Shown here piece by piece: positions 47,478 through 50,413 of a stretch of 64,000 nt of DNA (position 1 is the first letter of the stretch; each line of letters starts with the position of its first letter). This DNA comes from an uncultured Mycoplasmatota bacterium (GTDB lineage Bacteria > Bacillota_I > Bacilli_A > RF39 > UBA660). The notes beneath the pieces are model-generated. The model was not told the origin of the DNA. It did no database searches and saw only the letters and a list, made by a program, of their open reading frames with translations. Location: NCBI GenBank assembly GCA_947305065.1, contig CAMZCT010000002.1, positions 1 to 64,000 of the forward strand, written 5' to 3'. The translations under genes were made by a program, and so were the position numbers.

Positions 47478-48443
47478 CTATTTTAATAGCTGTCTTATTC
47501 TATCTTCGTCTTTGAATCCATTTTCATTATAAATTTCTTTAGCAAGTTTTTGAGGAATTCCACGCTTAACTAAGTCTTGGATATAGCGTTCCATTTCTTC
47601 ATCGGTATCAGCATCTAAAAAATCTATTCCTGATATTATTTCTAAAGCAAGAATTGAAAAGGAAGATAAAGATCTTTCATATTCTCTTCGACAAAAACTA
47701 TCTGAATAATAAGTACTTATACCATCTAAATCTATTATTTGTGGTTCCAAATTATAATCTAATATAACATTAGATTCTTTCTTACTAAAAGGTAGTAAAT
47801 CATTTTTTTGGGCTAAAGTAACAGGATATATATTATTTTCATATAATTCTTTTAGTTTTAAATACAATTTTTTTAACACCTCTTTACGTTTACTCAAAGG
47901 AAAATATGAAAGAGCATAGATTCCAAATACTGAATTATATCTTTTATAAACGCAACCAACTAATCTACCGTCTACTTTAATTAGTTTTTGAGGAAGGTTT
48001 GTATATTTTACTTTTTCTTGCTTTTCAATTGCTTTTAAGATAGCATCCTCACGATTAAGTATTACCCCATCACCATCGATGTAATTAATAGGTTTATTAT
48101 TTATTCTTGTTCCTCTATGTCTTAATTCTTTAGGGTCTCTAATGTTAACTTCTTCAGCGTCTAATACGCCATCTTCTTCTATTTTTATAGAATCTGATGT
48201 ATTATGATATATTTTATAAACTTCTTTAGAATTAACTCCATAAACTTTTCCATCTACACCAGAACCTATTTCTTTTTTTCTTCTTACTATTTTATCAAAT
48301 TCATCTTTTGTTAATTCTATTATATTTCCCACTTCTTTAGAATTAACTCCATAAACTGTTCCATCTACACCAGAACCTAATTTTTTTTTTCTACTTTTTA
48401 TTTTATCAAATTTACCTTTTGTTAATTCTATTATATTTCCCAT
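47478..48443 (-). CDS. Atypical protein-kinase-like protein with duplicated glycine loop
   Basis: This 321-residue soluble protein has the look of a eukaryotic-type or aminoglycoside-kinase-like fold. A glycine loop GSGVDGKVYGV is followed by a Lys in VYKIYH. A partial catalytic segment has AQKNDLLPFSKKESNVILD, and IIDLDG stands in place of DFG. The canonical HRD is degenerate. The first 37 residues after Met, including the glycine loop, are duplicated in tandem by a 111-bp repeat. The second copy continues into the kinase core. A weak promoter (TATAAT at 48473-48468) and the RNA A terminator precede it. The substrate is unknown. Confidence 0.65.
   Translation of the reverse strand: MGNIIELTKGKFDKIKSRKKKLGSGVDGTVYGVNSKEVGNIIELTKDEFDKIVRRKKEIGSGVDGKVYGVNSKEVYKIYHNTSDSIKIEEDGVLDAEEVNIRDPKELRHRGTRINNKPINYIDGDGVILNREDAILKAIEKQEKVKYTNLPQKLIKVDGRLVGCVYKRYNSVFGIYALSYFPLSKRKEVLKKLYLKLKELYENNIYPVTLAQKNDLLPFSKKESNVILDYNLEPQIIDLDGISTYYSDSFCRREYERSLSSFSILALEIISGIDFLDADTDEEMERYIQDLVKRGIPQKLAKEIYNENGFKDEDRIRQLLK
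48219..48440. repeat. 111-bp tandem in-frame duplication
   Basis: Units 48330-48440 and 48219-48329 encode GNIIELTK...GVNSKEV twice with a few substitutions (GTV/GKV, KL/EI). The divergence of several codons shows the duplication is not an assembly stutter of identical sequence. Confidence 0.9.
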
Positions 48444-48579
48444 ATTTATTCACCCTTATGTGTGTTTATTATAAAACAATTAATGAGGAAATAAAAGATA
48501 ATTATATAATTTTTTTAGCATTTTTATAATTTTTAATTATAGATAAAGCCTTATATATAACTTATTGTTTTTTCAACAA

Positions 48580-48942
48580 CTAAAAAAATATGTTGTGAAC
48601 AACATATTTCTTTAGGTGGCAAAGTTGTCATACCTCTCGTATACTGACAAATATTACTTGAGGTTCCTGTCAAAAGCGCCACATTCCGGAATACTTAATA
48701 GTTTGACAAGAAAGTTTAAAATCACTAATTTAGTCATTAGCTAGAAAGTACTGAGTTTTTTCCAATGAGGACCATTTGCATCATTGAGACGCCTCCCAAC
48801 AATGAACAGCACCACTCATATATATGGGGCCACCTTTCCTTTTAAAAAGGGTTTTTATAACAGTAATAAAGGTTATCTACGACAGTATACACCGTCATAA
48901 AAGGATTTCATTACATAAATAAAACACTCTATACTATTAAGT
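48580..48942 (-). ncRNA. Structured non-coding RNA A, family unknown
   Basis: This is a predicted transcript of about 360 bases with no plausible reading frame. It runs from a sigma-A promoter to a strong terminator. The 5' ATACTTAATAG (48944-48934) can pair perfectly with CTATTAAGTAT (48701-48691), closing a domain of about 240 bases. That domain contains a GAC/GTC hairpin (48881-48896). The 3' domain is closed by GTGGC (48682-48678) with GCCAC (48620-48616). Inside it TTGTC-AGT-ATAC pairs with GTAT-GACAA around a GAGAG loop, which is complementary to an upstream CCTC. It does not match tmRNA, RNase P, SRP, 6S or T-box signatures. It is 137 bases before the kinase-like gene, so a leader role is also possible. 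Confidence 0.55.
48582..48609 (-). terminator. Terminator of RNA A
   Basis: A perfect 11-bp stem (AAATATGTTGT at 48586-48596 with 48599-48609) and a run of seven T on the minus strand. Confidence 0.88.
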
Positions 48943-48948
48943 ATCTTT

Positions 48949-48977
48949 ATTATACTATTTATTATTTTTTAAGTCAA
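48949..48977 (-). promoter_or_regulatory. Promoter of RNA A
   Basis: TTGACT (48977-48972), a 17-bp spacer and TATAAT (48954-48949) on the minus strand. The predicted start is near 48942. Confidence 0.8.
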
Positions 48978-48998
48978 TTGACATTTGTGTAAAAGTAA

Positions 48999-49310
48999 CA
49001 AAAAAAAAGACATATTATCTGTCTATAATATGCCTATTTCTGTAGCGTTAATTAACTATAAAACAGTGACAGTTGTTATATAGTTTCTCACCAAATGCTA
49101 CAATACACGTATATACTTAATAGCTTGATAAGATACAGATTTAACGATTAATATAAATTATTAACCTCAGTAACGAATATCTTAAATATAATATTAAGTA
49201 ACGAGTTACAAAATAAAAATAATAAGATATATATATAGCAATAAAGATAAAATAAATACGAGATTTAAAATATAAAAATTACTACATAAATGTCACTCAT
49301 ACTATTAAGT
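48999..49310 (-). ncRNA. Structured non-coding RNA B, paralogue of RNA A
   Basis: This predicted transcript of about 310 bases lies upstream of and in tandem with RNA A. It starts with the same ATACTTAATAGTAT (49312-49299) and GAGTG..TTTATGTA. It has the same internal CTATTAAGTAT (49123-49113), again 11 bp perfectly complementary to the 5' end. The 3' domain is closed by TGTAGC (49102-49097) with GCTACA (49046-49041), different bases from RNA A but the same place and pairing. Inside is AACTATA (49085-49079) paired with TATAGTT (49060-49054). The middle is far more AT-rich than in RNA A, with a GTAAC/GTTAC hairpin. No reading frame and no recognised family. Confidence 0.5.
49000..49034 (-). 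terminator. Terminator of RNA B
   Basis: The minus strand reads GGCATATTAT, a 6-base loop, ATAATATGTC (10 bp with one G-U), then nine T. Confidence 0.88.
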
Positions 49311-49316
49311 ATCTTT

Positions 49317-49345
49317 AGTATACTATTTATAATAATTATTGTCAA
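49317..49345 (-). promoter_or_regulatory. Promoter of RNA B
   Basis: TTGACA (49345-49340), a 17-bp spacer and TATACT (49322-49317) on the minus strand, 40 bases after the stop of the HD gene. The spacer ends and the bases after the -10 box match the RNA A promoter, showing duplication of the whole unit. Confidence 0.8.
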
Positions 49346-49384
49346 TCACAAAAGAAGGAATAGTTGTCAAGTAATCAACACTTA

Positions 49385-50413
49385 TTAATTAATAGTTTTA
49401 ATACTTTTAACAAATCCATACCCTGTATCTTTGTAATCATCTATTTCCTGGTATATATCTCGAGCTTCGCTTGATAAGTTTGTAATTCTATCAATAGTAC
49501 CATCTTTTTGTAATAGTGGTATAGTATTTCTTTTTTTGGTTTCTATATGAACACAAAATCTATCATCGACAGGATTAGCACTAGTTAAAACTTTTGTTGC
49601 ACTTCTAAATAAAGGCCATGATTTAAAGTTTGAAGAGAAAATTCTAATTAATTCGGATTCTGATTTGGTATAGAGATCATCTAAAGTTATTATTCTATTA
49701 TTTATAGCTAATTTTATTAATTCAGATAAATACATCGTTACGTATTTATTTCTTGCGCTTTGTAGCTCTTTGGCATATGTTGAAACAACCTTGGCAAAGT
49801 TAATACATTGTTCTTCATCTATGAAACCTATTTCATTTATACCATCTTCATTTACTAAAAGTTTCATACTATCATAAATATTTTTAATAGTATCTAAAGT
49901 ATGTGTTTGAAGCCATATATATCCTGTATGTAAAACGCCATCAAGACGGTCTGTACATAATCTTGGAGTTTTGTTTTCAAGTATTGGGCAATCACTTAGA
50001 TTACTTACTTCTTCTATTTCAATACCATCTCTTTTTAATAAGCTTTTCAGCTTATTATCTTTAACTATTACATCACGTAAGTATTGTTCGGACTTTTCTT
50101 GATTTAGATAATCACCAAAGTAATAATCTATAGTATGAGCAAAGCAAGGAGTTTTATGATCGTGTAAAACCGCTTTAATAGTTTCGATTTTGTCATGACC
50201 GAAATGCCAAGTCATATGAGCTACTATATCGCTATGATTATAACGAGTATACTTAGCTCTTGTATTATATATTTTAGTATAATCACAACCACAGAACTGT
50301 GTATCTCCTTGTAATCTTTTTAAAGTACTAGTAGCTAAATATTCATCAATAAAGGATGGATATTCTTCTTTATCAACAAATATAGATTTGTAATCTCTTA
50401 TTATTTGACTCAT
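49385..50413 (-). CDS. HD-domain phosphohydrolase (SAMHD1/dGTPase-like)
   Basis: This 342-residue soluble protein has RYNHSDIVAH (His60) and AVLHDHKTPCFAHTID (His84, Asp85, His93). This follows the RxxHS and LHDxxxxPFSH pattern of SAMHD1/dGTPase-type HD enzymes. A later Asp in CTDRLDG near 155 could be the fourth metal ligand. Members remove triphosphate or phosphate from nucleotides; the substrate here is not known. It lies 23 bases after fhs with an AGGAGG site and is probably cotranscribed. RNA B's promoter starts immediately after its stop codon. Confidence 0.78.
   Translation of the reverse strand: MSQIIRDYKSIFVDKEEYPSFIDEYLATSTLKRLQGDTQFCGCDYTKIYNTRAKYTRYNHSDIVAHMTWHFGHDKIETIKAVLHDHKTPCFAHTIDYYFGDYLNQEKSEQYLRDVIVKDNKLKSLLKRDGIEIEEVSNLSDCPILENKTPRLCTDRLDGVLHTGYIWLQTHTLDTIKNIYDSMKLLVNEDGINEIGFIDEEQCINFAKVVSTYAKELQSARNKYVTMYLSELIKLAINNRIITLDDLYTKSESELIRIFSSNFKSWPLFRSATKVLTSANPVDDRFCVHIETKKRNTIPLLQKDGTIDRITNLSSEARDIYQEIDDYKDTGYGFVKSIKTIN

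Follow-up and report, generated by a model that had tools for sequence, protein, structure and literature searches.

The window analysed here, a stretch of 64,000 nucleotides from an uncultured Mycoplasmatota genome (G000), contains a gap of 941 bases (48444–49384) that holds two complete minus-strand RNA units, A and B (Table 1). No gene-sized frame is present in this gap, the largest ORFs in the ORF listing being of 42–43 amino acids, as a sequence-only reading of the window had stated. That reading had also described two tandem, related and structured transcripts of about 360 and 310 bases, each with a near-consensus sigma-A promoter and a hairpin followed by a T-run; the corresponding units are of ~363 nt (B) and ~313 nt (A), and their hairpins are terminator-like. 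Both units have a common start, ATACTTAATAG, a common GAGTG..TTTATGTA, and an internal segment, CTATTAAGTA, that is the complement of the 5′ end. The A and B promoters are the top two in a promoter scan of the region (11/12 matches), although promoter matches alone are insufficient, because promoter-like sites are not enriched in this AT-rich region (10 sites, compared with 8.4 expected from shuffles). A terminator scan with a minimum of three G-C pairs called no terminator for A or B, since their stems are AU-rich. Compared with dinucleotide shuffles, the folding energies correspond to z = −4.4 (A) and z = −4.1 (B), with 0/100 shuffles matching either. The shared sequences, the complement and the folding energies thus confirm the earlier observation, but what settles the reality of the units, at the level of sequence comparison, is conservation: the tandem is present in three relatives within the genus (73–79% identity in a DNA search), and more than 60 homologues have the promoter geometry and P1, the helix between the 5′ end and its internal complement.

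Table 1. Coordinates of the RNA units, their elements and the further copies in the same genome
Feature	Position	Strand	Evidence or remark
Unit A RNA gene	49000–49312	−	~313 nt; sequence, conservation, folding z −4.4
Unit B RNA gene	48582–48944	−	~363 nt; sequence, conservation, folding z −4.1
Unit A promoter, TTGACA-17-TATACT	49317–49345	−	sequence, promoter scan, homologue geometry
Unit B promoter, TTGACT-17-TATAAT	48949–48977	−	sequence, promoter scan, homologue geometry
Unit A P1 5′ strand, TACTTAATAG	49302–49311	−	pairs with 49123–49114; covariation, 61 units
Unit A P1 3′ strand, CTATTAAGTA	49114–49123	−	covariation
Unit B P1 5′ strand, TACTTAATAG	48934–48943	−	homologue comparison
Unit B P1 3′ strand, CTATTAAGTA	48692–48701	−	homologue comparison
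Unit A Pa 5′ strand, TCTTATCA	49126–49133	−	pairs with 49093–49086, crosses Pb; 8/8 pairs with double changes
Unit A Pa 3′ strand, TGGTGAGA	49086–49093	−	covariation count
Unit A self-complementary stretch, TATACGTGTA (one G-U)	49104–49113	−	proposed dimer contact; predicted mostly unpaired in monomer
Unit A Pb 5′ strand, TGTAGC	49097–49102	−	aligned variants
Unit A Pb 3′ strand, GCTACA	49041–49046	−	compensatory GCAGC/GCTGC in G012
Unit A Pc loop, CTGTC	49068–49072	−	kisses terminator loop; 97.9% paired, switches
Unit A terminator loop, GACAG	49019–49023	−	covariation count
Unit A terminator-like hairpin and T-run	49000–49035	−	8/8 stem pairs with double changes
Unit B Pa 5′ strand, CTTGTCAA	48703–48710	−	pairs with 48673–48666
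Unit B Pa 3′ strand, TTGACAGG	48666–48673	−	covariation count
Unit B palindrome, ATTCCGGAAT	48683–48692	−	proposed dimer contact; ATACCGGTAT in three relatives
Unit B Pb 5′ strand, TGTGGC	48678–48683	−	aligned variants
Unit B Pb 3′ strand, GCCAC	48616–48620	−	aligned variants
Unit B TGTCA...TGACA	48626–48649	−	UGUCA partner upstream, not terminator loop; conserved in four genomes
Unit B terminator-like hairpin and T-run	48582–48609	−	sequence, comparison with orthologues
Copy C, 3′ core	C3:97259–97402		covariance model match
Copy D	C2:105003–105134		covariance model match
Copy H	C2:91683–91816		covariance model match

Rfam 15 gave no relevant match in the window (E ≤ 5) or at 17 homologous loci in relatives (E ≤ 1). 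A RAGATH-7 match at 47641–47718 on the plus strand is a chance one, its 20.6 bits falling short of the gathering score of 111.8. No description of such an RNA was found in the literature consulted; the candidates reported by a human-microbiome RNA screen measure at most 219 bp (PMC8040213), and partial overlap with one of them is possible. The comparison with Rfam by Infernal, the collection of homologues and the covariance modelling, which had been proposed as a check, therefore favour the earlier view of the units as RNA genes of an unknown family, and A and B almost certainly belong to a new one.

Besides the tandem, the DNA search of this genome and its relatives gave partial matches, and inspection of the loci located other complete units of the same design in the window's genome; three covariance models built stepwise (R1, R2, R3) recovered more than 60 homologues with total lengths of 271–429 nt. 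Beyond what the sequence-only reading had described, the analysis thus revealed five copies in the genome (A, B, C, D and H), a pseudoknotted 3′ core as the most conserved part, and a switching palindrome. The relatives G007, G010 and G012 have five matches each, of which one (G010 C14:8396–8531) is weak and atypical, and at least one match is found in 13 of the 15 genomes of the genus, the second match of G003 being spurious. In the wider family about one genome in ten has a match (16/193 with R1, 6/39 with R2), usually as a single copy, and in the order 13/117 genomes do (R3). The rest of the class and phylum gave no convincing match in broad searches that score few candidates per genome, such that homologues could be missed. 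When 84,980 named species genomes were scanned with a pattern, the hits, with chance matches in unrelated bacteria set aside, came only from assemblies of uncultured gut Bacilli, Erysipelotrichaceae or Mycoplasmatota and from Bacillales UBA7476; one loose motif scan was discarded as too permissive. Independent tandem pairs occur at L117 and at L106/L107, and one homologue (L065, 1501–1632) lies among at least nine clustered tRNA genes. The weak matches L017/L083 and L095 are partial, without palindrome or P1, and were rejected as spurious; L017 is one of 34 rows in the R2 training set, and both L017 and L083 are absent from R3. A phage origin was likewise rejected: viral contigs gave two hits with a specific pattern and 80 loci with a loose one, none of which scores with R2 at E ≤ 0.1.

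The start of the RNA was located by seeking the P1 5′ strand upstream of each core in 62 units, with promoter-like sites rewarded. The best solution sets P1 right after a promoter in all but one unit, with a −35/−10 spacer of 17 nt (16 in four units) and a distance of exactly 5 nt from the −10 element to P1; since the search rewarded promoter-like sites, this constant distance is its informative part. The outlier, L055, fits on inspection, having TTGCAT-17-TATAGT followed by 5 nt and then TACTTAATA. The fixed position of P1 after the promoter implies that the RNA starts at P1. Pairing of the 5′ end with an internal segment, as the sequence-only reading had supposed, is borne out by pairs 3–9 of P1, which are formed in 61/61 units with C-G/G-C/U-A switches (variants include ACUUAAUAG/CUAUUAAGU, AGUUAAUAG/CUAUUAACU, ACUUGAUAG/CUAUCAAGU, ACUCAAUAG/CUAUUGAGU and GUCUAAUAG/CUAUUAGAU). 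The 5′ domain that P1 encloses differs among copies and has compensatory changes within orthologous groups, although the folding of parts of it is less certain.

Comparison of the homologues demonstrates that the conserved 3′ core is pseudoknotted, comprising P1, a helix Pa that crosses a helix Pb, and a hairpin Pc whose loop kisses the terminator loop. In a covariation count on 52 sequences, covering Pa (for example CUUAUCAAG/CUUGAUAAG), Pc, the kissing pairs and the terminator stem, 88.8% of cells are paired and 27/28 pairs have double changes, with the Pa and terminator counts leaning towards structure because the alignment was fitted to models containing both. The covariation score is 0.566 versus 0.198 in shuffles (0/500 as high) and at most 0.16 with slid partners. 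The kissing pairs, which are absent from the models, are 97.9% paired and switch from CUGUC/GACAG to CUGAC/GUCAG, CUAUC/GAUAG and UUGUC/GACAA; the Pc hairpin is 76% paired, and this helix is less certain. Pb, which crosses Pa because it closes around the 3′ half of Pa plus Pc, is represented by at least ten different complementary sequence pairs among the homologues, such as UGUGGC/GCCACA, UGUAGC/GCUACA, GCAGCA/UGCUGC, UGUGAC/GUCACA, CAAGUA/UACUUG and UUGGUGGA/UCCACCGA. These aligned compensatory changes constitute better evidence for the proposed Pb than a blind longest-helix test (real mean 6.3 versus 5.6 for mismatched partners), in which the separation is moderate because AU-rich stretches often yield some helix.

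P1, Pa, Pb, Pc, the palindrome and the promoter geometry are present in both A and B, with the terminator-loop kissing differing in B. In class B (48582–48712 in the window; L038, L041 and L042 elsewhere) the terminator loop lacks GACAG and a conserved UGACA has been gained upstream of the Pb 3′ strand, so the conserved UGUCA seems to have switched partner. The class B 5′ domain is also more conserved, and higher in G+C, than that of copy A.

A self-complementary stretch of 10–14 nt lies between the P1 3′ strand and Pb in nearly every group (for example AUGUACGUACAU, AAAAUGUACAUUUU, AUGUAAUUACAU, GUAUGCGCAUAC, AUACCGGUAU, AUUCCGGAAU and AUAUAGCUAUAU), and its centre switches between ACGU, GUAC, UAUA, CCGG, AAUU, GCGC and others. 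With strict Watson-Crick pairing, arms of at least 4 are found in 53/62 units, with ten different self-complementary centre tetramers. With G-U pairs allowed, 83% of 64 units have arms of at least 6, compared with 4% of shuffled stretches; because the search chose whichever centre scored best within a short range, observed and control values are both inflated. The central dinucleotide is self-complementary in 62/64 units (CG 32, UA 14, AU 13, GC 3). In unit B, AUUCCGGAAU takes the place of the AUACCGGUAU of three relatives, such that both sides have changed and self-complementarity is kept. Weak palindromes do occur: C copies have arms of only 4, one of them also deviating around the ACGU centre, and H copies keep only the ACGU core or have a shifted centre. 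In the predicted monomers the palindrome is mostly unpaired in A and partly paired in B, and duplexes of such palindromes have a predicted gain of 9–18 kcal/mol.

Palindromes are typical of DNA sites, and the patchy distribution and varied insertion sites of the family are in line with selection on the palindrome as DNA, either as the site of a dimeric DNA-binding protein or as a recombination or mobility site, the rest of the unit being a passenger. We regard this as highly improbable: many surrounding RNA helices have compensatory changes, the centre is too variable for one protein, and 15/16 asymmetries at the four innermost positions are G-U, which pairs in RNA but not in DNA. This count is helped by the G-U-tolerant search; the departures appear to fit RNA rather than DNA pairing.

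A second reading treats the RNA as a monomeric trans-acting regulator, in which variable 5′ domains pair with target messages, the 3′ core acts as a handle for stability or protein binding, and a dimeric RNA-binding protein recognises the palindrome as its two-fold site. The conserved 3′ core beside a fast-evolving, P1-closed domain, the several divergent copies per genome and the 3′ end in a terminator hairpin would all suit such a regulator. A protein site should, however, keep its letters, whereas the palindrome keeps only its self-complementarity through at least ten centres. Moreover, the 5′ domains are folded, with compensatory changes, and so leave no obvious long unpaired seed. We consider this reading unlikely, though not negligible.

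Because adjacent bases cannot pair within one chain, the switching palindrome argues instead for homodimers. From adjacent bases that covary as palindromes, Kretsch et al. argued that OLE and GOLLD form kissing loops between molecules, and these loops are backed by cryo-EM (PMC12286853). Palindromic covariation of adjacent nucleotides at one site, which marks an RNA homo-oligomer, is likewise observed here, and on these comparative grounds dimerisation through the palindrome is likely. The chances seem about even that the RNAs form a free-standing family of gut Bacilli that needs RNA-only homodimers (possibly larger assemblies), the palindromes of paralogues having diverged to give separate dimer specificities (CCGG in B versus ACGU-like in A, C and D).

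Neighbouring genes, whose names come from reading the sequence where family-search support is lacking, are conserved among close relatives only. A and B lie downstream of FTHFS and an unmatched 342-aa protein, and upstream of a kinase-like gene and a DnaB_2 protein gene; an alanyl-tRNA synthetase-like gene lies upstream of D, and dnaE downstream of C. Other homologues are found near an ACP/holo-ACP synthase region, rpsL-rpsG, cyclophilin and others. Across these homologue neighbourhoods, neither a gene partner conserved throughout the family nor a conserved regulated downstream gene, as expected of a riboswitch or attenuator, was found.

Several features of the neighbouring proteins were observed in addition. 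A ~100-aa protein without a Pfam match is encoded on the same strand 50–173 bases upstream of the E/F/H copies in the genus (L044, L069, L013, L011, L075, L077, L078, L089, L091 and L092) and not elsewhere, and a WXG100-like protein follows the H copy in G000. Upstream of unit A, the 342-aa protein (49385–50413, minus strand) resembles an HD-phosphohydrolase by eye and has no Pfam match at E ≤ 0.001. The kinase-like gene (47478–48443, minus strand) has a near-perfect tandem duplication of ~38 aa at its N-terminus (window 48443–48210; duplicated unit GNIIELTK.[KE]FDKI..RKK..GSGVDG.VYGVNSKEV), which suggests that the glycine-loop region was duplicated recently and in frame; the proteins in relatives are shorter, at 293 and 312 aa.

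In most units a terminator-like hairpin forms the end and a gene on the same strand follows, as would be expected of cis-acting leaders or attenuators that each control the downstream gene via a ligand-dependent terminator. Such an arrangement is very unlikely, given that the downstream genes vary (kinase-like, dnaE, ACP/holo-ACP synthase region, rpsL, cyclophilin, metal ATPase and others) and that both members of a tandem have a full promoter and terminator of their own. The A+B pair of G010, furthermore, has been retained beside different upstream genes and without the kinase-like gene downstream. The unconserved neighbours and the G010 locus argue against a cis-regulator of one gene and point to a trans-acting RNA.

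We therefore favour, as the probable explanation of the locus as a whole, that A and B are free-standing members of an RNA family the working form of which is a homodimer. The unit geometry, helices, pseudoknots, switching palindrome and trans-acting arrangement are established by the comparison of homologues. Transcription of each unit would be driven by a separate sigma-A promoter and would begin with the first bases of P1, and the 5′ end and internal segment would pair as P1 to close the fast-evolving 5′ domain. The 3′ end would then form the compact pseudoknotted core with its Pa/Pb crossing and its kissing of Pc and terminator-hairpin loops. The exposed palindrome may pair with its counterpart in a second molecule, giving a homodimer or a dimer-based oligomer that resembles, in principle, OLE, ROOL and GOLLD. 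Copies with the same palindrome (A, C and D, with an ACGU-like centre) could mix, whereas B, with CCGG, would be restricted to self-pairing. The dimer is likely to act in trans, perhaps as an RNA or RNA-protein scaffold; a scaffold role is a guess by analogy, which we think rather doubtful, and the patchy distribution (~10% of the family) would be unusual for a core scaffold.

Very few natural homo-oligomeric RNAs are recognised, the bacterial ones being OLE, ROOL and GOLLD, the functions of which are still open. If the present interpretation is correct, the family would provide a small case (~300 nt) in which the evolutionary signal of self-pairing is unusually strong, with about ten different self-complementary centres at one site, and selection on RNA quaternary structure in cells would become directly testable. 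The locus also shows that at least two families of ornate RNA coexist in an uncultured, genome-reduced gut lineage.

The similar size and complexity of known RNAs, the presence of OLE variants in the same genomes, and the use by OLE, too, of a switching palindromic kissing loop (PMC12286853) might suggest a strongly diverged member of a known family (OLE, 6S, ROOL, GOLLD, raiA, tmRNA or RNase P). We give this the slimmest of chances, as permissive Rfam scans gave no match and this genome has both OLE and a sub-threshold 6S match at other loci. There is no OLE (RF01071) score at the A and B loci; G000 has OLE at C6:56063–56543, in a shortened form of ~480 nt that exceeds the gathering score with 215 bits, and this agrees with a report of shortened OLE variants from the RF39 clade (PMC11332333). 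OLE was found in 13/20 tested genomes (G000 and 12/19 others), with the full ~610-nt form in G016, G017, G137 and G147, and its presence has no simple link with that of the new RNA. The only 6S-like (RF00013) match in the genome is at C7:18275–18469 (35.8 bits, E 8e-6, below the gathering score of 46.4). ROOL (RF03087) had no match in G000, in a search in which no control genome scored, and none at the A and B or homologous loci in the Rfam scans.

6S RNA is a free-standing bacterial RNA the 5′ end of which pairs far downstream; the new RNA is similar in both respects, but is pseudoknotted and has no 6S match. The raiA motif RNA (RF03072) is a pseudoknotted, free-standing RNA of Firmicutes in the 200-nt class, and the new RNA shares its first two properties but not an Rfam match. 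By cryo-EM, raiA is a monomer (PMC12286853). Retroviral dimer initiation sites, such as the HIV-1 DIS, dimerise via a self-complementary loop (PMC7357161), the analogy being one of mechanism only, since these belong to viral genomic RNA of unrelated sequence and context. ROOL and GOLLD are likewise large, ornate bacterial RNAs, and form homo-oligomers backed by covariation of intermolecular contacts (PMC12286853), but are longer (the ROOL model has 574 positions) and match the new RNA in neither sequence nor structure. OLE, at about 480–616 nt, differs in sequence and architecture and occupies a separate locus; it is similarly free-standing and complex, occurs in the same genomes, and forms a homodimer that uses, among other contacts, a symmetric kissing loop with a tetranucleotide that switches between palindromes (PMC12286853).
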